From: a virus
Direction: 5' to 3' (one strand)
Length of the DNA: 64,000 bases
Virus record (IMG/VR): IMGVR_UViG_3300024054_000362
Location: 62,001-126,000 of that record
Part shown: in pieces, positions 18,607-30,019 of the stretch
Numbering within the stretch: the stretch's first letter is position 1
Layout: each line of letters starts with the position of its first letter
The notes under the pieces: model-generated
Told to the model about the DNA's origin: nothing
Database searches by the model: none
What the model saw: only the letters and a program-made list of their open reading frames with translations
Program-made: the position numbers and the translations under genes

Positions 18607-19965
18607 TTACTGATCGTAGTAGTCGAAGCTCGCACGGGTGGTGATGCTCGGTGTGCCTTCAGGCGCGCCGTAGAGGAGTAGACGTGCCGGACCTGTCACG
18701 ATCAGCGGAACGGTGCGAGGCCGTGATGCTTGAATTCCGCCCCTACCGCCGACGCGGATGAAGTCGCTGATCTGAATGTCTGGGGCCGTACCACCAAGCG
18801 ACTTACTGCGCAATGTCACGATCGTACCGTTGGACGCGTTGCTGTTGTGGCCCGAGATGATCGAGACGCTACATTGTTTACCCGTCGCGACATAGTGCTG
18901 CGCCCACAGTGTTTGGTTGTCACCTGCGTTGACTGTCGCGAGCGTACCGCCACCGCCTGCCGTCGCGTTGAACAGCGTCAAGATACCCGCGTTCTGACCG
19001 CCCGAGCCGACGGAGATGACCTTGATCGACTCGATGTAGCAGATGTTCGTTGCGACGGTGTTGACCGCCGCGACGCCGTTGAGCGTGACATCTTCCGTGA
19101 ACGGACCTGTGAACGTCGCGGTGTAGTACGTGATCCGAACCTGGCGTGCACCGGTACCGGCGGCTGTATCATTTGCATTCGCCGACGAAATCGAACGTTG
19201 CGCGTTCGCGGCAGGCTCGTTGTACGTCGATGCACGGATCGGCACGTTGGTCGTCGCCGCGGTTGTGACCGTACCGAACTGTGTGCCTTTGATGTTCGTT
19301 GAATCGAGTGTTGTGAGCGTCGAGTTTTCAACCGCCGACGCACGAAGCTGACACGACGCCGTGCCTGATGTGAACGCCGACACACGCACGCGAACGTGCG
19401 AAGCGCCGCTCGACGCGAAGAACGATCGTGCCGTTGCCGTGTTCGCGGCACTAAATACCAAACTCGATGCTGTCAGATCTGTCGTCGGATCGAAAAAGAA
19501 CGTCGAGACCCACGTCGTACCGCCATCAAACGAAAGCTCGGCGACGAGCGTGCCGATCAACGTACCGGCCGAGAGTTGCATGCCCGCGCCTGCGAGACCC
19601 GCAAGCGCGACTTGCACCGCAACGTTGAGCGCGTTCAGGTTACCGGTCGACGTGACATCCGTGGCGCCCGTCGTACCGATGATCAACTTGCCGGTGGCGT
19701 CGGTCAGTAGCGTACGCGCGTTTGCGCCGTCGGAGCCCGCGACAAGTACTGGGTTGCCCGCGACCGCCGCGCCGCTCGCTGCCGCACCGACCGCCAACTG
19801 ACGCCCTGACGCGTCGAGGAGAATAAACCGCGCGTTCGTGCCGTCGGAACCTGCTGCGAGAAGCCCGCGTGTACCGACCGGAATCGCGACACCGTTGGCG
19901 ACAGCCAGCTCGACCCCGTTGGAGTCGTAGAGCATGACGTCGGGTGTCTGATCGGTAACCGGCAT
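18607..19965 (-). CDS. spike-like structural protein (paralogue 2) with N-terminal repeats
   Basis: 452 residues. The N-terminal part has two copies of a beta unit: VAGSDGxNARxLLxDAxGxxL, broken here as consensus. A middle beta domain (EGxSFDGGTTWVSTFFFDP-like) follows. The C-terminal 250 residues are homologous to the 17845 protein (NAQRSISSANANDTAAGTGA). Likely a larger spike subunit made by duplication and addition of domains. Start ATG 19965; weak ribosome site. Confidence 0.7.
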   Translation of the reverse strand: MPVTDQTPDVMLYDSNGVELAVANGVAIPVGTRGLLAAGSDGTNARFILLDASGRQLAVGAAASGAAVAGNPVLVAGSDGANARTLLTDATGKLIIGTTGATDVTSTGNLNALNVAVQVALAGLAGAGMQLSAGTLIGTLVAELSFDGGTTWVSTFFFDPTTDLTASSLVFSAANTATARSFFASSGASHVRVRVSAFTSGTASCQLRASAVENSTLTTLDSTNIKGTQFGTVTTAATTNVPIRASTYNEPAANAQRSISSANANDTAAGTGARQVRITYYTATFTGPFTEDVTLNGVAAVNTVATNICYIESIKVISVGSGGQNAGILTLFNATAGGGGTLATVNAGDNQTLWAQHYVATGKQCSVSIISGHNSNASNGTIVTLRSKSLGGTAPDIQISDFIRVGGRGGIQASRPRTVPLIVTGPARLLLYGAPEGTPSITTRASFDYYDQ

Positions 19966-20006
19966 CGGTCGGGTCCGACGCTATCCCATCGCAGTCGCTG
20001 GTGCGA

Positions 20007-20561
20007 CTACGGCGTCAGCTCGGTGGCGAGCATCGTTGCTGTTCCCACAGCCGTGATCGCCGTAATGATGCCGGTATAGACCGGGAACGGGATTTCCCAC
20101 TCGCTCTGGTTCGCAAGACGCGCCGTGAAGCTTGCTGTCGTCGCTGCGGCGCCGAGCTTGACGTATGCCTGCTGGGCGCCGTTGTTCCACAGAATCGCAC
20201 CTAGGCGGTTCGCGTTCGATGCGAGGACCGTTGCGACGACGGTCGAGAGCGCGACGCTCGTGACTGTCGATGTGGCAGGTTGCGCGATTGTCGTGGTGAT
20301 AGAACCTGCGACACGAACGACGAGACCGAAGGCGCCCGCGCCCGGTGCGGCGTTCACGACCTCGGCGGTGTCGACGCCGTCCGTGACCAGAATCGGCCAC
20401 GCACTCGCGACAGCAGCTGCAGTGCCCTGATTCGCCGTAACCGTGCCGCTCACAGGCTGCGTGGTCGTGCCTGTCGGGTCGATGCGTAGCGGGTTGGCAG
20501 CGGTGCCGGTCTCGACGTCCGCGGAGTTGTACAAAACCGTGTAGGCGTTCGTTAACGACAT
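20007..20561 (-). CDS. virion surface protein with phage-structural beta domain
   Basis: 184 residues. N-terminus has the PVSGTVTANQGT and WPILVTDG motifs seen in many phage structural proteins. The C-terminal 100 residues form a beta domain (NRLGAILWNNGAQQAYVKLG, then EWEIPFPVYTGIITAI) that is repeated in the protein at 21866. ATG 20561 has a GAGGAG ribosome site; a TAGACT box followed by palindrome copy 5 lies upstream. Confidence 0.75.
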   Translation of the reverse strand: MSLTNAYTVLYNSADVETGTAANPLRIDPTGTTTQPVSGTVTANQGTAAAVASAWPILVTDGVDTAEVVNAAPGAGAFGLVVRVAGSITTTIAQPATSTVTSVALSTVVATVLASNANRLGAILWNNGAQQAYVKLGAAATTASFTARLANQSEWEIPFPVYTGIITAITAVGTATMLATELTP

Positions 20562-20579
20562 CCGTCTATGCTCCTCGTC

Positions 20580-20595
20580 GATCGCAGGAGCGATC
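20580..20595. promoter_or_regulatory. 16-bp palindrome, copy 5
   Basis: GATCGC, AGGA, GCGATC between the divergent genes at 20561 (minus) and 20649 (plus). It is eight bases downstream of a minus-strand TAGACT box, the same layout as copies 1 and 2. Confidence 0.7.
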
Positions 20596-20648
20596 GCCCC
20601 CCAAGTCTACCTCGATCGACCCGTCTTCGTGCGTGTTACCGTGCCGCC

Positions 20649-21569
20649 GTGAAGACGATCATCCGTATTAGCCCTCACGCCCTCGACACACCCGAGCGAA
20701 TTGTCGCGGAAAAGCTGCCCCCACTGGCGGTACGAATGCTTGCCGAAGCGTACTCGACGCGTCGTGCCGAGCTAGGAGACGACGCCCTTCTCGTGCTCGA
20801 CCAAGGTAAAGACGGCAAGCCTGTCTACTTGACAATCGGCTCGAAGCCGCCCGAGCTAACCATCGGCGGTCGGCGCGTTCACGCCGTCTTTGCCCCACCT
20901 GAAAGCCAAGAACCGCTTGCAACGTTCTTCGATCGAGAGGACGCCAAGAAGTGGGCACTCGCGAAGTGGCCCGTCGATCCAACGCATCCAGTGTCCGACG
21001 AATTCAAGATCGGCGAGATCGATGCAACAGACAAACCCGTCGTTCGCGTCGCCGTCACCGCGCTGATGATCCACGAGGGCAAAGTCCTCATGGGCAAGCT
21101 CAAGAAGAGTGGCTTCTGTGTACTCCCAGAAGGCACGCTCGAAGTCGGCGAGTCGGTCGAGAGCGCCGTACAGCGCGCCGTGAAGGTCACGACCGGGCTC
21201 GACGTTGGGCGCATCTCAGTCTCGAAGTTTGCGCCCTACGTCTCGACGTTCGTCGAGAAGGCGGGTCAGCACTTCTTGACGCTCGTGATGTCCACCGAGT
21301 ACGTCGGTGGCGATCCACAGGCGCTCGATGCGATGTGGGAGAGCTGCGGTTGGTTCGACGCCGAACAGCCGCCCGAACCACGCAGCGTGATCGTTCAACA
21401 GATCATCGCGCTTGCGAAGTACAACACCGCGTCGCCCGTGCCGCCGGCACCGCCCGTGACGTTGCCCGAAAATCCGCCGAGTCTCGTCGCAGCTGCGGCG
21501 AAGGCCCGAGAGAAGGCGAAGACGAAGAAGGTGAAGAAGCCCGCGCGACGTCAGCGTCGTTCGGCTTAA
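20649..21569 (+). CDS. degenerate Nudix-domain protein
   Basis: 306 residues. N-terminal 100 residues are unassigned; residues about 135-265 follow a Nudix fold with LPEGTLEVGESVESAVQRAV in the Nudix-box position. The first Gly and Glu and the Arg are kept, but the catalytic REUXEE part reads RAVKVTT, so the metal-binding glutamates are missing. It may bind a nucleotide or sugar-nucleotide without hydrolysing it, or be a regulator. Lys-rich C-terminal tail. Start GTG 20649 is six bases after TACCGT (leaderless type). Confidence 0.75.
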   Translation: MKTIIRISPHALDTPERIVAEKLPPLAVRMLAEAYSTRRAELGDDALLVLDQGKDGKPVYLTIGSKPPELTIGGRRVHAVFAPPESQEPLATFFDREDAKKWALAKWPVDPTHPVSDEFKIGEIDATDKPVVRVAVTALMIHEGKVLMGKLKKSGFCVLPEGTLEVGESVESAVQRAVKVTTGLDVGRISVSKFAPYVSTFVEKAGQHFLTLVMSTEYVGGDPQALDAMWESCGWFDAEQPPEPRSVIVQQIIALAKYNTASPVPPAPPVTLPENPPSLVAAAAKAREKAKTKKVKKPARRQRRSA

Positions 21570-21856
21570 CCGTTCGCTTTGGCGGCGTCCGCGGCGAGCT
21601 TCGCTGCACGCTCCTCGGCGAGCTTCGCAGTTGCTTCCTCGTGTTCCTTCTGCACGATGGCAGCATCCATGTCGCAGATCTTCTGCAGCGCGAGATTTGC
21701 GGCAGGATCCTTGCCTTCACCGTCCATCGATGCCGTTACGATGACGAGCGATGCGCCACCTCCGGCATCCTGGATCGTGAGCTTGGCCTTCGAATCGGTG
21801 ACGGCCTTGTCAACCTGCGCACGGGTGAGCTTGCGGATGAGAGCTTGAACGGGCAT
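21566..21856 (-). CDS. small helical protein with Ala/Glu/Lys-rich C-terminus
   Basis: 96 residues. A small alpha/beta N-terminus (LIRKLTRAQVDKAV, LTIQDAGGGASLVIVTA) and a long helix rich in Ala, Glu and Lys from about 55, possibly coiled coil. ATG 21856 is six bases after TAGGAT with no Shine-Dalgarno sequence. Overlaps the end of the Nudix-like gene by 4 nt. Function unknown. Confidence 0.65.
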   Translation of the reverse strand: MPVQALIRKLTRAQVDKAVTDSKAKLTIQDAGGGASLVIVTASMDGEGKDPAANLALQKICDMDAAIVQKEHEEATAKLAEERAAKLAADAAKANG

Positions 21857-21865
21857 GGCTTCATC

Positions 21866-22270
21866 CTACGTCAACTCGGTGACCGTCGCGAAGCCACCAA
21901 CGCCGGGCCCCCAAACGCCTTCGATGACGCCCGTGTACGCGGGAAACGGCAGCTCGAAGTAGCTGTGCGGCCCCAGGCGTACCGAGTAACTAACGCTGCT
22001 CACACCGCCGCCGAGCTTGATGTACATGAAGCGGTTCGCCGAGTCGTTGTTGATCGTCGCGCCGAGCCGCGCGGGATTGGCTGCCAGATAGACTGCCGGG
22101 ACAGCCGACGCTGGGATCGTCGTCGTCACGCCGATAGACGGCTGCGTGATCGTGACGATGATCGGAATCCCGCCGCCCTTGAGCAGGACAACCATCGCCC
22201 AGTCGTCGGGCGCTGCAGGCGCGTCCTGACGAATCGTCGGTGACGTGACTAGCGCCCGCGCCGGGTCCAT
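21866..22270 (-). CDS. virion surface protein, beta-domain paralogue
   Basis: 134 residues. Homologous to the C-terminal domain of the 20007 protein: NPARLGATINNDSANRFMYI aligned with NRLGAILWNNGAQQAYV, and YFELPFPAYTGVI with WEIPFPVYTGII. Probably a capsid decoration or spike-base protein. ATG 22270 is six bases after TAGGCT (leaderless type). Confidence 0.7.
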   Translation of the reverse strand: MDPARALVTSPTIRQDAPAAPDDWAMVVLLKGGGIPIIVTITQPSIGVTTTIPASAVPAVYLAANPARLGATINNDSANRFMYIKLGGGVSSVSYSVRLGPHSYFELPFPAYTGVIEGVWGPGVGGFATVTELT

Positions 22271-22300
22271 GTCCTCAGCCTATCACGCGCACCCAAACGC

Positions 22301-23164
22301 TCAGCGCGAAGCATAGTTGTCGACGCCGCTGATCGAGACGACCACGGGGCCCGTCGGGTTCAGCGTAGGCGACATGTTGCCCTTGGCATACAAGACTTGC
22401 TTTGCATTCATCCGAATCAGTTGATGTTGACCAGCTGGAACGGTCAGCGTGTCTCCGGCGGGCACCGTTGACAAGCCGGCGGCAATCACGTTCTGTGGGA
22501 TATTCAGCTCGTTCGCCGAAAACGAAAACGATGCGAGCGCTCCCGGCGGAGCGACCACGCGAACGATGACTTCGTGAGAGACGCCGCCTGCTGTAGCGAT
22601 GCGAATCGCAGGTGTGTTTGCGTCAGCGAGCCACGGCAACCGATACGTTCGCATCGTTGATTGTCCGAAAGGACGCTCTGAGTGGCTCACGAGTGCACCG
22701 ATCCCCGATTCGAGACGGCCGATCGCCGCCAGCATGTTGCTGTCGTCGAAGATCGGCGGCTCCGGCGATATAGGCTCCGCGCGAACCACTTGCGCTTGAC
22801 CGTTACCGGTGTTGATCAAGTACACTTGCGGCGATGGCGCCGACATGAACCGTGGCTCGGACGCGCCAAGCGCCGTTTTTGTCGAATCGTCCTTACGGAG
22901 AAGTAGGTATACGATCACGCCAGTCAAGCCGATGAAGGCGATCGCACCCAGACCGATCGCGAGCGGTACCCATGGAGAAAGGCGATCCGTCGACGTCGGT
23001 GAAGAGCCCGTAAGAGTTGGCGTAGACGATGATGGTTCTGACGGTTCTGGGGCATCACGATGGACGATTACAGCCGTAGTCGGCGCTCGCACGGAAGGAC
23101 CGCGTGCGAACCGTCGTACCATCCCACGGCCAGCAAGAAACACGCCTGTAGGGTATCCGGCCAC
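22301..23164 (-). CDS. single-pass membrane protein with large C-terminal domain
   Basis: 287 residues from GTG 23164. A Ser/Thr/Pro-rich N-terminus of about 65 residues is followed by one membrane segment (about 66-91: WVPLAIGLGAIAFIGLTGVI within it). A spacer and a beta-rich C-terminal domain of about 130 residues follow, with PAGDTLTVPAGQHQLIRMN. The C-terminal domain recalls the beta proteins at 25558 and 26791 (VPAGESAVFQL, GQQHALVLAPKQG). Likely a membrane-anchored virion protein. Confidence 0.7.
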   Translation of the reverse strand: MAGYPTGVFLAGRGMVRRFARGPSVRAPTTAVIVHRDAPEPSEPSSSTPTLTGSSPTSTDRLSPWVPLAIGLGAIAFIGLTGVIVYLLLRKDDSTKTALGASEPRFMSAPSPQVYLINTGNGQAQVVRAEPISPEPPIFDDSNMLAAIGRLESGIGALVSHSERPFGQSTMRTYRLPWLADANTPAIRIATAGGVSHEVIVRVVAPPGALASFSFSANELNIPQNVIAAGLSTVPAGDTLTVPAGQHQLIRMNAKQVLYAKGNMSPTLNPTGPVVVSISGVDNYASR

Positions 23165-23205
23165 GCGCGCCCAATCAACCCCAGTAAGTCGCTGAAGATG
23201 AACGC

Positions 23206-23688
23206 GTGATCACGATGGTCGACAAACGGGTCGGCAGGGCGCTTGTCGCCGCTGTCTACGCGACCGATCGGCACATCTCGATCATGGAAGTCGCGCTGAA
23301 GGCATCACGACAAGGTCTTTCACCCGTCGACGTTGACACACCGAACGGTGTCGATGCGTTGATCGCAATCGCCGTCGCACTGATGGCCACACCGATCCTG
23401 TACCGACCGGTGATCGATCGACCGCGAGGTCTCTGGGCTAGCGCGGTCGACTGGGCACTCAAGATCGTCTCGTCCAAATTTGAAACGCCGGCTCAAGTTG
23501 CGGCTGCACACTGGCGCGCCGAGGTCGACCGTAAGCGCGAGATCAACCGTCGTATAGAGATGCTGAGACGTGCCGCGACCGTTTGCGGTACGGGCTTCGC
23601 CCAGAAGGCCACCGTAGACGCTCAAGCTCATCCAGAAGTTGCTCCGCTTCATGAGGTTCAAGATCAGCTCGGTAACGCGTCAGGATGA
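23206..23688 (+). CDS. RQGL-family small protein, copy 1
   Basis: 160 residues from GTG 23206 (ATG 23215 also possible). Residues about 35-65 carry RQGLSPVDVDTPNGVDALIA, shared with the proteins at 49302 and 52930. The family has a helical N-terminus and a second helix after the motif. The C-terminal 50 residues overlap, antisense, the end of the LAGLIDADG gene. Function unknown; three scattered copies argue for a real conserved role. Confidence 0.65.
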   Translation: MITMVDKRVGRALVAAVYATDRHISIMEVALKASRQGLSPVDVDTPNGVDALIAIAVALMATPILYRPVIDRPRGLWASAVDWALKIVSSKFETPAQVAAAHWRAEVDRKREINRRIEMLRRAATVCGTGFAQKATVDAQAHPEVAPLHEVQDQLGNASG

Positions 23689-24532
23689 GATCGACTTCTG
23701 CGGCCTTTTCGATCACGTATGGCCGAACGTCTTGTAGAAATTTGAAAACGGCCTCGCGCGCGATCAGACGATACATGATTGATGAACGTTCTCGCCCTGT
23801 ACGGGCGACGTACTGAAAGCATCCACCATAGACCTGCCAGATGCGTTTGACGCCGTCTGCAAAGGTTTGATCGAACGCAACACGTACGTGCCACGTACGA
23901 CCGATTTTCTGGACGTCGATGTTACCGTCGCCGTCGAAGTACCCCGCGAAATAGTTCAAGTCCGTTTCATTTGGTTGACGTACGTACTCGAACGTTCGCA
24001 ACTTGTTTCGCGGTCCGACAACGAACGCACCATCGCGCTTCGCTTGTTGATAGTGACAACCACACAAGCCGCGACAAACGGCCACGAAACGACAGCCTTC
24101 GTGACTGCACGAGCCGCGACGTTTCTTCGTCAACGGGACATCAGTTTTCTTGAGACGACGTCTCTTCGCGCGCGCAAGATCTCGCATCAACGCTCGGCCC
24201 ACTGTGCGCGGTAACCGCGATGCGAAACGATCCAAAACCATCTGTGCTTGATCACGCTTCTCACCGAGGAAAGGCAAAACGTCGTTGAGGAAACATGCAA
24301 CGACAGCGTAGCGACGCATTTGCCAGCACGTCTTGTTGCCACTACGACGTAATGTTCCACCGTAGATCTGTTGAATACGTTCGAGGACGATCGGCTTTAC
24401 TTGCTGGAAGGCGACAGTCGCCTGCCAGAACTGCTCGTGATTCGTCGCGACACGAATACAACCTTCGGCGTCGAAGTAGCCCGCAAGATATGCACGGAAG
24501 CTAGACGACGGGGCAGGCAAACCGCGTGTCAT
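23543..24532 (-). CDS. LAGLIDADG homing endonuclease with inserted zinc motif
   Basis: 329 residues. Two LAGLIDADG motifs: YLAGYFDAEG at about 15-24 and YFAGYFDGDG at about 193-203, each with the active-site acidic residue, so one chain forms the two-fold nuclease. Between them a basic region and a zinc-like cluster (CSHEGCRFVAVCRGLCGCHY, about 142-161) similar to clusters in phage HNH proteins. It lies 138 bp from, and divergent to, the capsid-like gene split by a group I intron, so it may mobilise that intron. ATG 24532 is six bases after TAAGAT (leaderless type). Overlaps the 23206 gene tail by 146 bp. Confidence 0.9.
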   Translation of the reverse strand: MTRGLPAPSSSFRAYLAGYFDAEGCIRVATNHEQFWQATVAFQQVKPIVLERIQQIYGGTLRRSGNKTCWQMRRYAVVACFLNDVLPFLGEKRDQAQMVLDRFASRLPRTVGRALMRDLARAKRRRLKKTDVPLTKKRRGSCSHEGCRFVAVCRGLCGCHYQQAKRDGAFVVGPRNKLRTFEYVRQPNETDLNYFAGYFDGDGNIDVQKIGRTWHVRVAFDQTFADGVKRIWQVYGGCFQYVARTGRERSSIMYRLIAREAVFKFLQDVRPYVIEKAAEVDLILTRYRADLEPHEAEQLLDELERLRWPSGRSPYRKRSRHVSASLYDG

Positions 24533-24617
24533 AAGGAGATCTTAGCAACGACATGTTGCGATCCGCAAGGGAACTTTGCTCGACAGACGCACGTCGGTCT
24601 TCGCTTGCGTTAAGTTC

Positions 24618-24633
24618 GATCACAACAGCGATC
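24618..24633. promoter_or_regulatory. palindrome-like element, copy 6 (one half degenerate)
   Basis: GATCAC, AACA, GCGATC, upstream of the split capsid-like gene at 24671. Confidence 0.5.
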
Positions 24634-24670
24634 AACATCGATCGCGCCCGTGACTAGCGAGGAGGACAAC

Positions 24671-24797
24671 GTGGGCCGATTGCCACTACAATTTGCCGGA
24701 AAGGACATCACCTTTCGGATTCCGTACAACATCGCTGCTGAATTGGACGTTGGTCCAAATCTCAACGGTGTTGTCTTCCCCGAAGCGTCCAACTACT
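24671..24797 (+). CDS. capsid-like protein, exon 1 (gene split by group I intron)
   Basis: Encodes the first 42 residues plus one base of the next codon, from GTG 24671 (GAGGAGG ribosome site) to the 5' splice site; without splicing it stops at TGA 24797-24799. After removal of the intron the frame joins exon 2 (25118-25536) to give a 181-residue beta-rich protein. It has motifs such as DITFRIPYNIAAELDVG near the start. Size and strand-rich character recall the small single-jelly-roll capsid proteins of membrane-containing phages, but this is only a resemblance. No enzyme motif. Confidence 0.75.
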
Positions 24798-25117
24798 GAA
24801 CGCCGCCCAAGGTAACTTGGGACGAAAAACCACGTGAACTGCTGGAACCCCCTAAAGCTCGAACGCCACAGCGTGGCCGGCAACGGCGAGCGCGACGGCT
24901 TGAAAAGCGTCGAGATGTACAATGGGCAATCAGCAGCCAAGCGACTCGGCGACGAGTCGAAGGTTCAACGACTAGGGCATGGAGTCTCAGCGGCGCAGGT
25001 CGGTGAGATGGTAGAGCCCCACGAGTGCGTGGCAACCGGTCACACCGGTTGAAGATATAGTCTGAGCTACCGGGAAACCGGTAGGAGCCGCATAAACAGC
25101 GGCTCGCTAACACACCT
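24798..25117 (+). ncRNA. group I self-splicing intron
   Basis: About 320 nt with no ORF. Core elements seen: the J3/4-P4 signature GGGCAATCAGCAGCCAAGC; a stem CGACTCG/CGAGTCG; GGTTCAACGACTA (P7 5' strand GACTA 24970-24974) pairing with TAGTC (25058-25062) in AAGATATAGTC; P9 (25067-25084, GAAA loop); and a further hairpin 25085-25105. P1 can form with U24797 opposite G24811. The sequence CTG occurs at both junctions, so the boundary is ambiguous by up to three bases; in-frame splicing gives an uninterrupted protein. The terminal G normally expected would be G25118. Confidence 0.9.
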
Positions 25118-25536
25118 GCTTCCTCCACAACGTCGACAAACCGTTCGAGATCCACCGCGTCAAGATCGAGCTGACGGCCAAGGGCACCCCAGAAGGCTTC
25201 AGCACGCCGACTGTATTGGAGCCCCAACCGACGACGATGCAGCGTCGCGTGCGGCTCAACATCCTCGACTTCTCGAAGAACGAGAAGCTGACGAAGTCGT
25301 CGACGCTCGTCGGGCTTCTTCTTGCGCGCAACACGGGTGCGTGGGATCTCGAAGAGCCCTACACGATCGTCCGCAGCGAGGGCTTCCAAGTCGGCGTCGA
25401 CACGCTCGACTTTCCCGCCGTCGTCATCCTCGACGAGAACATCGAACCCGAGCGCGTGCTCGTCGAGTTCGTTCGCGTCGAGGTAAATCTTCAGGGCTAT
25501 CTCGACATCGTCGGTCCACCCAGCGAGGTCCGCTAA
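25118..25536 (+). CDS. capsid-like protein, exon 2
   Basis: Encodes about 139 residues (CFLHNVDKPFEIHRVKIEL onward, ending VGPPSEVR). It has no start codon of its own before residue 60 or so and opens just after an in-frame TAA inside the intron, which supports splicing. Alternating hydrophobic strands (RRVRLNILDFS, TLVGLLLARNTGAW, VLVEFVRVEVNLQGYL) suggest a beta barrel. It is followed by two small structural genes. Strong candidate for a capsid or penton-type protein. Confidence 0.75.
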
Positions 25537-25557
25537 CGCTCACGCGTTCGGTGAACC

Positions 25558-25860
25558 ATGCAGAATACGACCTTCGAGACCTTCAACGTTCAACCCGTCG
25601 GTTCCAACACGCCGACAACGCTGGCCAAGGCCGCGACGCATCCGTTGCGCGTCCTTGTCAACAACGTCGGTCCGGTCACGATCTTCGTCAGCCTCAACAC
25701 GACAGATCTACAGCCGACGCCGTCGATGCAGACCTATCGCGTGTTCCCGGGTCAACAGCACGCGCTCGTGCTCGCACCCAAACAAGGCCTCCACGCCGTT
25801 GGTGTCGCTGCCGGCGGTCTCATGTCGGTCACCGCTTCCGAAGCGTTGCCGGTCGGCTGA
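25558..25860 (+). CDS. small beta-rich virion protein
   Basis: 100 residues. Strands with VNNVGPVTIFVSL, YRVFPGQQHALVLAPKQGLH and a Gly/Ala-rich end. Its pattern (a sandwich with a PGQQ loop) recalls the C-terminal domains at 22301 and 26791. ATG 25558 lies 21 nt after the split gene. Probable capsid or spike-base component; inference. Confidence 0.7.
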   Translation: MQNTTFETFNVQPVGSNTPTTLAKAATHPLRVLVNNVGPVTIFVSLNTTDLQPTPSMQTYRVFPGQQHALVLAPKQGLHAVGVAAGGLMSVTASEALPVG

Positions 25861-25870
25861 AAGGACAGTC

Positions 25871-26218
25871 ATGAAGGATCAAGAGACCTGGGACGATCGC
25901 TACAATCTGATCAACCACCCGTACCTGCACTACGGCACCTTCACGACGACGGTGTCCATTACGGCTGGTGAAGAAAGCGCTGCGGCCGTCATCCTCGCGA
26001 ACGGCGCCATCACGATCACGCTGCCGCTCGCCGTCGACAACAAAGGCCGCGCGTTCTACATCAAAAACATCGGCGTTGGCGCAGTCACCGTGGCACCATC
26101 GGGCGGAGACCTGATCGATGGCGGGGCCGGCGGATCGCTGCCCGATCAGTACGACGTTATGTTGGTCGTGTCCGACGGCACAACCAACTGGTGGATCCTG
26201 TCGTTCAGCGATCTGTAG
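25871..26218 (+). CDS. phage fibre/spike-type beta protein
   Basis: 115 residues. The segment ANGAITITLPLAVDNKGRAF, IKNIGVGAVTVAP and GDLIDGGAGGSLP follows the well-known repeat of phage fibre tips and capsid decoration proteins. ATG 25871, with AAAGGAC upstream. Third in the run beginning with the split capsid-like gene. Confidence 0.75.
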   Translation: MKDQETWDDRYNLINHPYLHYGTFTTTVSITAGEESAAAVILANGAITITLPLAVDNKGRAFYIKNIGVGAVTVAPSGGDLIDGGAGGSLPDQYDVMLVVSDGTTNWWILSFSDL

Positions 26219-26352
26219 CGTTCCGTCGTCGGAAACTTACCGTCGGGTTGACAGCGCGTCGGGTAACTTATTGAATTTTCAGCGTATTACAGGCCCGGAA
26301 ACCTACCGTTTGCAGGGCTTCGTACAGCATGCCAACATACTCTTGACAAGTT
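26219..26352 (+). promoter_or_regulatory. promoter region with direct repeats
   Basis: Contains TTGACA in GGGTTGACAGCGCG followed by TAACTT/TATTGA, and two copies of GGAAAC(T/C)TACCGT at 26231-26243 and 26297-26309. A second TCTTGAC occurs just before ATG 26353. Likely drives the lipoprotein gene. Confidence 0.45.
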
Positions 26353-26787
26353 ATGAAGCAGATCAAGAAGATGATGATGATGGTTCTGATGCTCACGCTC
26401 GCCGGGTGCGGTTGCAGAGACAACCACGGCGACGATGATGACGCCGACATCGACGCGCCTGCGGTCGTCATCGACGCGCCCCCCGACGGGCCCAAGTCGT
26501 ACGCGCCGTGTGAAGGCTGCTGCGATCCGATCAACCAGACCGGCTGTGCGACGGGACAGGCTTGTTACCATCACGCAACCGGGCCCGATGCCGGACGGAC
26601 GTACTGCGATACGATGGGTACTGCGCCTTACGGCGGAAACTGTTTTGTTGATACTGACTGCTCAGCAGGCACAGGGTGCTTCAACGGCAAGTGCATCAAG
26701 TTCTGCACCGTCGCCGCCGAGTGCGCACCGATCCACAACAATTGTTTCCCAGCACAAGACCCGTTCATCTACGGCGTCTGTAGTTAG
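26353..26787 (+). CDS. Cys-rich lipoprotein
   Basis: 144 residues. Type II signal peptide with lipobox LAGC (cysteine near residue 19), then an acidic linker DADIDAPAVVIDAPPDG of the kind common in Myxococcota lipoproteins. Twelve or more cysteines follow in EGF-like spacing (CDPINQTGCATGQACY, CFVDTDCSAGTGCFNGKC). It resembles host surface proteins more than phage proteins, so it may be a captured host gene used for lysogenic conversion or exclusion. Confidence 0.85.
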   Translation: MKQIKKMMMMVLMLTLAGCGCRDNHGDDDDADIDAPAVVIDAPPDGPKSYAPCEGCCDPINQTGCATGQACYHHATGPDAGRTYCDTMGTAPYGGNCFVDTDCSAGTGCFNGKCIKFCTVAAECAPIHNNCFPAQDPFIYGVCS

Positions 26788-26790
26788 TGG

Positions 26791-27777
26791 TTAGTCGAAC
26801 GCGTCGATGCTGATCGAGACACCTGCGATGACGATCGCCGACGTCTTGACGAGCATGAAACTGACGCCGGGGTTACAAAGTTGAAAAACGGCGCTCTCCC
26901 CTGCAGGAACAGTCGTCGCTGCAAGCATCTCGACCTCTTCGTTCGTGTGCGACGCGAATACGGGACCTGAAACTTCCACGACCTGATGAAAGGTCCCGGA
27001 TACCGCGAGGTCGAAATCCGAACCGCCGATGTTGCGCACGCTGACCGAGATGTTTCGTCGGCCAGCAATCGGAACGACCATGGTTCCTTGAGGCACGTTG
27101 AGCGGGTAGGTGTACGCACGGTGGAACGGCGCACGTCGTCCCGTCGGAAGCGCCCCGAGACTGCTCATGTAAAGCAACAAGCGTAACTCAGGGTTCGTCC
27201 ACGTATCCGGCAGTGCAACCGTTCCTGAATTCATCGCGGTGCCGTATGGCAAGCTCGCGCCTGTTGTCAGCTGCAGGTACGTGTCGCTGTACCAGTGCGC
27301 GGGATCCGCGCGCACGATGAACGGCCCCGGTACGACGCCAATCAACGGCGATTCCTTGTTGAGAACGAACTCCGTCTCCAGGATGCCGCCGCGATTCACG
27401 AAGCCCGACTCGAACGGCACGTTGCCGCCGGGGGGCGGCACCTGTGGCAACGGCGGCGGAACGAACAAAGGCGACGGCGGAACGTTCGGCAAACTGGGCG
27501 GCGTCTGCGGCAACGAGTTGAAGTGCAAGATGCAACGGTCGATGTCGCTACGCGGCGAGATCGCGATGGCGTAGACGCTCGGGATCAACGGCGCCATGAA
27601 CCGTCCCTCGATGGGGATCGATCCGTTGGCGTTGGTCTTGACCGGCGGATACTGAATCGAGCCGTTGTCGGCGTCCTGTTTTTGTCCGCGGTTTCCCCAG
27701 TTCGTCAGGATCAGCTCGTAGATGTTGTCACCGAGCTTGATCGCGTCTGCGAACGTTCGCGGGTTGATCTGGGCCAT
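26791..27777 (-). CDS. virion structural protein
   Basis: 328 residues. A beta domain at 1-85, a Pro-rich linker (repeats of PPxPxxPPP type, about 88-115), and a C-terminal beta region of about 210 residues ending VKTSAIVIAGVSISIDAF. The end (GESAVFQLCNPGVSFMLVK) is similar to those at 22301 and 25558. No membrane segment. Start ATG 27777. Pro hinge suggests an extended spike or vertex protein. Confidence 0.7.
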   Translation of the reverse strand: MAQINPRTFADAIKLGDNIYELILTNWGNRGQKQDADNGSIQYPPVKTNANGSIPIEGRFMAPLIPSVYAIAISPRSDIDRCILHFNSLPQTPPSLPNVPPSPLFVPPPLPQVPPPGGNVPFESGFVNRGGILETEFVLNKESPLIGVVPGPFIVRADPAHWYSDTYLQLTTGASLPYGTAMNSGTVALPDTWTNPELRLLLYMSSLGALPTGRRAPFHRAYTYPLNVPQGTMVVPIAGRRNISVSVRNIGGSDFDLAVSGTFHQVVEVSGPVFASHTNEEVEMLAATTVPAGESAVFQLCNPGVSFMLVKTSAIVIAGVSISIDAFD

Positions 27778-27855
27778 AGCGCCTCGGTCCCAATGTACGA
27801 GGCCTCGAAGAGAGGGTCAAACGGTCGCTGCTGGGATCCCTCATGTTCCTGCGGC

Positions 27856-27871
27856 GATCGCTTGCGCGATC
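27856..27871. promoter_or_regulatory. 16-bp palindrome, copy 7
   Basis: GATCGC, TTGC, GCGATC, upstream of the leaderless start at 27900 and of the opposite gene starting at 27777. Confidence 0.7.
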
Positions 27872-27899
27872 GCTCCTGGGATCGTGCTAGGATGGCCGC

Positions 27900-28037
27900 A
27901 TGCTCGGTCGTCGTGCTCCCAAGGCAGCTGGCAACAACTGTTGTGTTCGGCAGGTCCCCACTCGTCCTGCAGTCACACCGCGTCCAGTGCCACAACCGAC
28001 ACAGCGCCCGATCCAACGCCCCCTCGTGAAGCGATAA
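27900..28037 (+). CDS. tiny basic Pro-rich protein
   Basis: 45 residues, Arg/Pro/Gln-rich with a CC pair, ending RPLVKR. ATG 27900 is six bases after TAGGAT with no Shine-Dalgarno sequence, just like many genes here. It opens the run of small virion-like genes to 29634. Composition suggests DNA or membrane contact. Confidence 0.65.
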   Translation: MLGRRAPKAAGNNCCVRQVPTRPAVTPRPVPQPTQRPIQRPLVKR

Positions 28038-28049
28038 GAGGAGATCAAG

Positions 28050-28370
28050 ATGCTCGGAGACATGTTCGGCAACCTCGGTGCTCGTCGACGCAAGCGCAGC
28101 CGCAAGAGCCGCAGGGGCCGCGGTGGATGTGCTGTCAAGACGATCACGATCAAGACGCGTCGGGGCAAAGTCGTCCGGTTCCGCGGCAAGAGCGGCGCCG
28201 GCTGCGGTCCGCGTCCGAAGCCGCGTACCGGCCACCTCGCCCCGTACAAACGCGCTATGGCAAGCGCCGCACGCTCCTGCAAAGGCCTCAAGAAGCGCCA
28301 GTTCGAGAGCTGCGTCGCGAGCGCAATGCGCAGTGGTGGCGGCAAGCGCCGTCGCCGTCGCCGCAAGTAG
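28050..28370 (+). CDS. protamine-like basic protein
   Basis: 106 residues. Arg/Lys-rich at both ends (RRRKRSRKSRRGRGG near the start, KRRRRRRK at the end) with a short Cys-containing middle (SCKGLKKRQFESCVASAM). It resembles small DNA-condensing core proteins of viruses. A good GAGGAG ribosome site precedes ATG 28050. Likely packages or neutralises DNA in the particle; inference from charge and neighbours. Confidence 0.75.
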   Translation: MLGDMFGNLGARRRKRSRKSRRGRGGCAVKTITIKTRRGKVVRFRGKSGAGCGPRPKPRTGHLAPYKRAMASAARSCKGLKKRQFESCVASAMRSGGGKRRRRRRK

Positions 28371-28378
28371 GTCACGCC

Positions 28379-28600
28379 GTGGACTTCTTGCAGATGGTCA
28401 TCGAACGATGGGGCTTTCCAGCCTTCTTCGTCGTGTGGCTCATGCGAGACGTCATGCGTGAACAGCGGGCGCAGCGAGCACAGATCACCAAGTTGGTCGT
28501 CGTCAACACGGTGATTCTGAAAACGCTGGACATCCCGGAGGCAGAAAAGGCGGCGCTTCTCGCCGAGGACGAGGGCAAGGACGGGGGCAGAAAGGACTAG
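28379..28600 (+). CDS. small single-pass membrane protein
   Basis: 73 residues from GTG 28379. One hydrophobic stretch at about 10-22, a basic heptad region and an acidic C-terminus (EAEKAALLAEDEGKD). Likely coiled coil after the membrane anchor. Part of the small membrane-protein run. Confidence 0.65.
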   Translation: MDFLQMVIERWGFPAFFVVWLMRDVMREQRAQRAQITKLVVVNTVILKTLDIPEAEKAALLAEDEGKDGGRKD

Positions 28601-28603
28601 CCC

Positions 28604-28840
28604 ATGGAGTCATTTCTCGTTTCGATCATCGTGTTCATCGTCGCCGGGATCGCGCTCGGCATTTGGAAACACGCGACGCGGAAGCGATTCAAAATCGAGG
28701 TCGCACACCTTGATGAACAGATCGCCGAGGTCGCTGAAGTCGCCCAACGACGACACAAGAAGCGCTTCGGCCGTGCCAGCACCGACCTCAACGCCTCGTT
28801 CACAATCACCGCTAACGGCGGTGCACACCGAAAGGTGTGA
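28604..28840 (+). CDS. small single-pass membrane protein
   Basis: 78 residues. N-terminal membrane segment (about 3-22) and a basic coiled-coil-like helix (HLDEQIAEVAEVAQRRHKKR). ATG 28604, 4 nt after the previous stop. Confidence 0.7.
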   Translation: MESFLVSIIVFIVAGIALGIWKHATRKRFKIEVAHLDEQIAEVAEVAQRRHKKRFGRASTDLNASFTITANGGAHRKV

Positions 28841-28892
28841 AAACATCGTGAGGGCCGCCCACACCCAACGTGAATCACCGAGTAGTACCCAA

Positions 28893-29189
28893 GTGAATCA
28901 CCACGAAGTCCCCATTGCAGCCTCCGTCCTTGTCGCGCTCGCGTGGCTGCCTGTGCTGCTCCGGTTCTTCCGGTCGTGGCGCATTCGGAACAACCCGATC
29001 AGCTTCGCAATCTGCATGCTGGTGCTCTTCGCACTGTACATGCCGGTCTTCGCGATCGCGTCGTTCGACTTCCAGTTGTGGCCGCTCGCGACGATCCTCA
29101 CGCTCAACACCATGGTGTGCATCACGTTCTACGTGACGTTTCGCCTGTCCGACCGGAAGTTCCACGACGCTCGAAAACACGGCGGCTGA
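28893..29189 (+). CDS. small multi-pass membrane protein
   Basis: 98 residues from GTG 28893. Three probable membrane segments (about 10-27, 35-55, 60-82) and a basic C-terminus. No recognised family; a holin is possible from size and topology but cannot be told apart from a virion membrane protein. Confidence 0.65.
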   Translation: MNHHEVPIAASVLVALAWLPVLLRFFRSWRIRNNPISFAICMLVLFALYMPVFAIASFDFQLWPLATILTLNTMVCITFYVTFRLSDRKFHDARKHGG

Positions 29190-29205
29190 CGCCAAGGAGA
29201 TACTG

Positions 29206-29634
29206 ATGCTCGCCCTGCAACACGAAAATGCACAAATGATGTTCGGTCAGGCGACTGCCCCGAGCGTCACGCAACAAGTCACCCAGTCGATCGCAGACCG
29301 CATCGCGGCAATTCGCGCGAAGATGGTCAAGGTTGGCATCCCGGCCGCCGTCGGCACTGGCGTTGTGGCAACGTTCGTGTCCGCGGGCGCTTTCGGACTC
29401 GCACGCACCGAGCGCGTCTGGACGCCGAGCCTCTTCCTCGGCGGTGTCGCCGTCGCAGCAGGCCTCATTGCAACAGCGCTGGCTGCCAAGGTCGCCAAGG
29501 ACACAGCAACTGCGCAGGCGACCGCGGCGGCGACAGCACCTACTGCAGCGCCTGCAACTGCACCGGTCGTCGATGCCTCAGCAGTCGCGACGGGCAACGG
29601 CTTCGGCTTCGGCTTCGGCTTCGGCGGCTACTAG
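29206..29634 (+). CDS. two-pass membrane protein with Gly/Phe tail
   Basis: 142 residues. Helical N-terminus (VTQSIADRIAAIRAKMVK), two Gly/Ala-rich membrane segments (about 47-66 and 78-97), an Ala/Thr-rich spacer and a C-terminal GFGFGFGFGGY repeat. AAGGAGATA upstream of ATG 29206. Candidate abundant virion membrane protein. Confidence 0.7.
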   Translation: MLALQHENAQMMFGQATAPSVTQQVTQSIADRIAAIRAKMVKVGIPAAVGTGVVATFVSAGAFGLARTERVWTPSLFLGGVAVAAGLIATALAAKVAKDTATAQATAAATAPTAAPATAPVVDASAVATGNGFGFGFGFGGY

Positions 29635-29686
29635 ACGACGTGCTAGCTTCCTCCTGTCGCCACTTCGTGACGACATGGGTAGAAAC

Positions 29687-30019
29687 CTAGAGCGATGTGT
29701 GGTGGTGCGTGTAGATGCCCGGCGGTAGCCCCACTGGACAGTTGATCGCGTGCTCGGTCCACGTCACCTGGCCGTTCGAGAGGCGCGTCAGGAAGCGCAT
29801 GCGGCAGATGAACGGCCGCGACTGCGAGACCGGTTGCGGCGGTCCCGGCGGCATGAACGCCGGCTGCGGCGGCCGTGCGTTCTGGGGCAGGCCGCCTTGC
29901 TGCTGGAGCTTGACCATTGCGTCGGCGAAGGCACTCTGCAGGTTGTTGTGGGCCGACGGATCGATGGCGACCGAACCGAGAACTTGTCCGTTGGCGCTGC
30001 GCAGGTTGGCGTACATCAT
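29687..30019 (-). CDS. hypothetical protein with Pro-rich linker
   Basis: 110 residues. A small N-terminal part (MMYANLRSANGQVLGSVAID), a Gln/Pro-rich middle and a beta-rich end (CRMRFLTRLSNGQVTWTEH). AAGGGAG upstream of ATG 30019. Unknown; follows the thioredoxin-like gene on the minus strand. Confidence 0.65.
   Translation of the reverse strand: MMYANLRSANGQVLGSVAIDPSAHNNLQSAFADAMVKLQQQGGLPQNARPPQPAFMPPGPPQPVSQSRPFICRMRFLTRLSNGQVTWTEHAINCPVGLPPGIYTHHHTSL

Follow-up and report, generated by a model that had tools for sequence, protein, structure and literature searches.

Introduction

Whether an intron devoid of any nuclease gene and a homing endonuclease encoded just outside it have travelled together is the question raised by a stretch of 64,000 nucleotides (nt), hereafter the window, which corresponds to positions 62001-126000 of the 221,422-base-pair (bp) virus record IMGVR_UViG_3300024054_000362 and derives from a large uncultured phage. 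At this locus a free-standing gene for a LAGLIDADG endonuclease lies back to back with a gene split by a group I intron. An intron without its own open reading frame (ORF), accompanied at short distance by a free-standing nuclease, is the combination by which a collaborative pair is recognized. Collaborative (trans) homing has been established for F-CphI and for a T7-like phage case (review PMC3984707), and has been proposed for the ICP1 terL intron and its neighbouring T5orf172 gene (PMC10448857). On balance, the evidence assembled below tips slightly towards a joint movement of the intron and the nuclease by this mechanism, with cleavage as a predicted step. The elements on which the argument rests are the following, in coordinates of the window:

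23543-24532 (stop codon included), minus strand: free-standing two-motif LAGLIDADG endonuclease of 329 amino acids (aa), identified with Pfam, phmmer, PHROGs and Foldseek
24050-24109, minus strand: cysteine/histidine (Cys/His) cluster between the LAGLIDADG domains, residues 142-161, placed from the residue positions
24533-24670: divergent intergenic region of 138 bp, with 53.6% guanine plus cytosine (G+C)
24671-25536, plus strand: split gene as a whole, divergent from the nuclease gene
24671-24789, plus strand: exon 1, with a GTG start preceded by AGGAGG and with AT-shifted third positions
24790-25118, plus strand: group I intron of 329 nt, delimited with Rfam RF00028 and collinear intronless relatives
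25119-25536, plus strand: exon 2, delimited by collinearity with relatives

The Two-Motif Nuclease and Its Cys/His Module

LAGLIDADG proteins are described as the largest family of homing endonucleases (PMC3984707). The first-pass annotation had placed a two-motif member of this family 138 bp from the split gene and pointing away from it, with a Cys/His cluster between its motifs and an intron without nuclease ORF as its neighbour, and this description is borne out: ORF, Pfam, phmmer and motif positions agree on the protein, the space between the nuclease start and the split-gene start is exactly 24533-24670, all seven Cys and His positions (C142, H144, C147, C153, C157, C159 and H160) have been located, and no nuclease ORF is recognisable in the intron, the longest sense ORF of which (24834-25052, 72 aa) overlaps the catalytic core. 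The Pfam matches are LAGLIDADG_3 (3e-10) and LAGLIDADG_1 (8e-7), and the solved relatives retrieved by phmmer comprise I-CvuI (6.7e-5), an I-CreI-derived single-chain enzyme (1.7e-5) and also I-MsoI. In PHROGs the protein falls in phrog_5046 (1.5e-29), a family that is labelled HNH, yet LAGLIDADG genes are among its annotated relatives in phages. The structural model, although of low confidence (predicted local distance difference test, pLDDT, 57), leads Foldseek to the LAGLIDADG fold and to the same enzymes I-CvuI, I-CreI and I-MsoI.

The two motifs read LAGYFDAEG (residues 16-24) and FAGYFDGDG (residues 195-203). In the alignment with I-CreI and I-CvuI the catalytic acids at the motif ends, E23 and D202, are both present, and both halves retain the Gln and Lys positions seen in I-CreI, which gives the protein the appearance of an active single-chain enzyme. 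LAGLIDADG proteins can also serve as maturases (PMC3984707), and a nuclease acting mainly as a splicing helper for the neighbouring intron has to be considered; the conservation of both acids and of the Gln/Lys positions, an intron core that looks complete and the divergent, stand-alone position of the gene all argue against such a role, which is very improbable. Both halves of the protein resemble I-CreI, I-CvuI and I-MsoI in sequence and predicted fold, but these are intron-encoded homodimers from algal organelles, whereas the window nuclease combines two domains in one chain, is encoded outside the intron and has a Cys/His linker module. Residues 124-170, which include this module, match phrog_5351 (phage HNH endonucleases, 1.7e-4), and the Cys/His stretch aligns with mycobacteriophage HNH proteins (46% over 44 aa, E 0.03). 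The cluster is probably a zinc-binding module, the binding of zinc being a prediction.

Among viral contigs and annotated phages, no close homologue of the nuclease was found, just distant single-motif ones. The LAGLIDADG proteins of StenR_269, CcrRogue, KIL1 and Gordonia phages belong to the same broad family phrog_5046 and also stand alone in phage genomes, but they measure about 130-165 aa, have one motif and no Cys/His insert, and are mostly not intron-adjacent. No second free-standing LAGLIDADG gene was found in the 221,422-bp record. The other LAGLIDADG match of the record (about 199258-199788) lies inside a 758-aa ORF (L006 634-2910), which resembles a PD-(D/E)XK-like nuclease interrupted by an intein, with junctions placed by eye at ...EHKC/LHADEK... 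and ...GIITHN/TASRF....

The Split Gene and Its Group I Intron

The intron matches RF00028 with 71.8 bits (E 3e-16, for a cut-off of 50 bits), its conserved core fits the family model and an insertion between P7 and P3 is typical of subgroup IA. Rfam detects no other group I intron in the record. Its boundaries were set by alignment with the uninterrupted relatives and are thus inferred from DNA; the predicted join ...EAS/FLHN... would give a 178-aa product, collinear with three relatives and 84% and 80% identical to the homologues in L002 and L003, respectively (the same places as L010 and L011 below). The 3' end corresponds to a terminal G at 25118, and the CU that precedes this G can pair, in a reading of the sequence, with the AG following P7, as expected for P9.0.

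The 5' splice site of group I introns is nearly always a U-G pair, and a C-A pair at this position is tolerated, as known from mutants. In the register that fits the relatives, P1 (24783-24809) reads GCGU-C-CA / UG-A-ACGC and sets a C opposite an A at the 5' splice site, and RNAfold returns exactly this hairpin with the C and the A unpaired. A C-A pair in place of U-G appears to be the better reading because a shift by one base would give U-A but lose the terminal G. The placement of P1 by Rfam (GGU / GCC, with a splice after 24768) was rejected, since it gives no in-frame join and drops residues that the relatives keep.

The product of the split gene matches nothing in Pfam or PHROGs, and its model, which is rich in beta structure and of low confidence (pLDDT 62), did not lead to a usable fold match. 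The insertion site abuts the most conserved DNA of the gene, the next 30 nt being identical in the relatives L011, L012 and L013, and the L013 protein being just 43% identical to the product of the window.

Intronless Relatives at the Same Locus

Relatives of the split gene occur in four viral records (L010 to L013), where they are all uninterrupted. Searched over their whole length, these records, which are fragments with the syntenic region complete in three, yielded no group I intron and no copy of the nuclease; the nuclease query finds itself in the record of the window at 1e-230, and the search of the relatives was run without a positive control of its own. The first-pass annotation had proposed relatives lacking both elements as a check on its reading, and such relatives have thus come to light, three of the four being syntenic on both sides. 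Gene order is common to the window and to L010, L011 and L012 on both sides of the pair, from about 19000 to 30000, with a weaker similarity in places along L011. A search for relatives in bacterial genomes returned 34 pattern matches, none of which was confirmed.

In the three syntenic relatives, the space between the split gene and the gene for a 287-aa protein (22301-23164 in the window) contains an ORF of 126-134 aa on the minus strand. This ORF is unrelated to the nuclease and was not found elsewhere in the record of the window. The place of this ORF is occupied in the window by the nuclease gene together with an additional frame:

23206-23688, plus strand: uncertain ORF of 160 aa, taken from the ORF list, convergent with the nuclease gene and overlapping its 3' end

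No homologue of this frame was found, and it is not seen in the relatives. The replacement of an ancestral ORF is what homing without any intron would also produce, and it leads to the main rival explanation, according to which the nuclease is an independent free-standing homing gene that promotes its own spread only, with a target site within or close to its locus (where the relatives have the ~130-aa ORF, or in a conserved gene nearby), and the intron, older or unrelated, has been carried along as a passenger. The joint absence of the intron and the nuclease from the relatives speaks against this explanation, which we regard as a serious but unlikely one.

The Compositional Tract

For a window mean of 61.5% G+C, the nuclease gene stands at 54.6%, the intergenic region at the value listed above and exon 1 at 52.1%, to be followed by 59.0% in the intron and 61.0% in exon 2. 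Taken as a whole, the 1247-bp tract 23543-24789 has 54.3% G+C, against a comparison value of 61.4%, and falls within the lowest 0.13% of windows of this length; exon 1 of the relatives ranges from 59.7 to 63.9%. Synonymous third-base differences in exon 1, counted as AT in the window against GC in the relative, amount to 8:0 for L010, 12:0 for L011 and 9:3 for L012, and to 4:5, 4:1 and 3:3, respectively, about 1:1, over the first 40 codons of exon 2. Control blocks of 39 codons from neighbouring genes reach the excess of exon 1 in 0/111, 0/98 and 3/112 cases, figures that are descriptive and not p-values, the blocks being overlapping and the relatives not independent.

The simplest reading is that a tract of lower G+C content was imported from a related phage, with its right edge at or near the insertion site of the intron. 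A tract ending there fits the pattern left by the repair of a break at this site, with conversion mainly leftward, and does not indicate which nuclease would have made the break. A composition common to the nuclease gene and to exon 1, and stopping at the intron, is a further point against an independent homing gene.

Adjacency and Rarity of the Arrangement

Only 257 bp separate the nuclease gene from the intron, and one intron and one gene placed at random in the record would come so close with a probability of about 0.005, which again disfavours two independent elements. The opposite indication comes from annotated phages, where free-standing LAGLIDADG genes without an intron are common: at eight of ten such loci, no group I intron occurs within about 3 kilobases (kb). 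The two others, KIL1 and RHph_N3_13, possess a group I intron in the ribonucleotide reductase gene, at ~1.0 and 2.5 kb from the LAGLIDADG gene. In Pseudomonas phage KIL1 (L139 2995-4771) and Rhizobium phage RHph_N3_13 (L138 2932-6115), the free-standing LAGLIDADG gene also adjoins the thymidylate synthase gene, and the target of these nucleases is therefore ambiguous.

An intron-core pattern retrieved at least 120 viral stretches, which form a non-random sample, and a LAGLIDADG profile built in the course of this work matches three stretches among the matches listed, namely L102, L018 and L016. In L102 and L018 the LAGLIDADG gene lies in or against the intron. L016 (467-1942) is a locus with two homing nucleases: a two-motif LAGLIDADG gene lies immediately upstream of a group I intron, and this intron contains an HNH ORF. 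Among 80 LAGLIDADG-bearing viral contigs, 18 records have intron matches at E 1e-3, two of them over the cut-off, and several of the LAGLIDADG genes overlap or abut such matches. Several low-score intron matches of this survey run antisense over LAGLIDADG genes; a rescan of eleven of its loci kept intron matches at E 1e-3 in L187, L188 and L223 only, and the antisense matches are therefore taken as likely due to chance. In L187 (1279-2855), an opposite-strand LAGLIDADG gene stands between two ORFs resembling pieces of one gene, with a weak group I match ~0.9 kb away, and possibly represents an antisense nuclease gene within an insertion.

The many phage LAGLIDADG genes found inside or against intron matches are also compatible with a turnover of nucleases, in which the intron would have lost an endonuclease of its own and the free-standing gene would be a later arrival at this hot locus, an alternative published for the ICP1 terL arrangement (PMC10448857). 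No remnant ORF is recognised in the 329 nt of the intron and no relative was found whose intron at the insertion site contains an ORF, and this course of events appears improbable.

Proposed Mechanism

Under collaborative homing, the nuclease would cut the intronless allele of a co-infecting phage at or very near the insertion site, and repair off the donor genome would copy the intron into the break. An asymmetric tract extending leftward through exon 1 would bring the nuclease gene along. The donor would be protected by its intron, which splits the recognition site, and self-splicing would keep the split gene functional.

The proposal of collaborative homing already made in the first-pass annotation is thus upheld in part. 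The joint absence of both elements from the relatives, the small probability of a chance adjacency, the conserved insertion site and the AT-rich tract lend it support, and the nuclease may still target another site. Several further observations weigh against it. A single intron-bearing genome is known, so that the co-occurrence of intron and nuclease has one positive case; no Shine-Dalgarno sequence is seen upstream of the ATG of the nuclease gene; exon 1 comprises only 39 codons. The putatively imported tract may predate a single homing event or extend beyond it, because the left-hand gene 22301-23164 is likewise AT-shifted at third positions (44:19, 44:19 and 40:26). Among the at least 120 matches listed for the intron core, L016 is the only other stretch with a LAGLIDADG gene outside a nearby intron.

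Comparison with Known Collaborative Systems

The closest points of comparison are F-CphI, which is located beside the psbA intron of cyanophage S-PM2 (Zeng et al. 2009; Fang et al. 2018, PMC6083498), and the ICP1 pair. The likeness to F-CphI resides in the proposed co-transfer of intron and nuclease; F-CphI displays an Endo VII motif instead of LAGLIDADG motifs, and its cleavage at the insertion site has been demonstrated, whereas that by the nuclease of the window is predicted. ICP1 relies on a T5orf172 nuclease related to GIY-YIG enzymes (PMC10448857), in contrast with the divergent two-motif LAGLIDADG gene and the Cys/His insert encountered here. In the accessible parts of the open-access literature, no LAGLIDADG example of collaborative homing in phages was found. 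A T3/T7-like phage case attributed to Bonocora and Shub (2009) reportedly shows an arrangement comparable to that of ICP1 terL. The reported collaborative arrangements that were found use other nuclease families. By a narrow preference, and on condition that the predicted cleavage takes place, we read the pair as a LAGLIDADG variant of collaborative homing. That it represents the first such pair in phages, combining a monomeric nuclease with a Cys/His DNA-binding module borrowed from HNH proteins, an ORF-less intron with a C-A 5' splice site and a visible co-conversion tract, is a tentative and rather doubtful proposition.

Collaborative homing has been proposed as an intermediate in the origin of mobile introns, a stage at which nuclease and intron share a site and the nuclease gene has yet to enter the intron. 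The conserved intronless relatives supply ready-made target DNA. If the joint movement holds true, a LAGLIDADG pair whose members are still separate would offer a test of this intermediate-stage route for the largest family of homing endonucleases.
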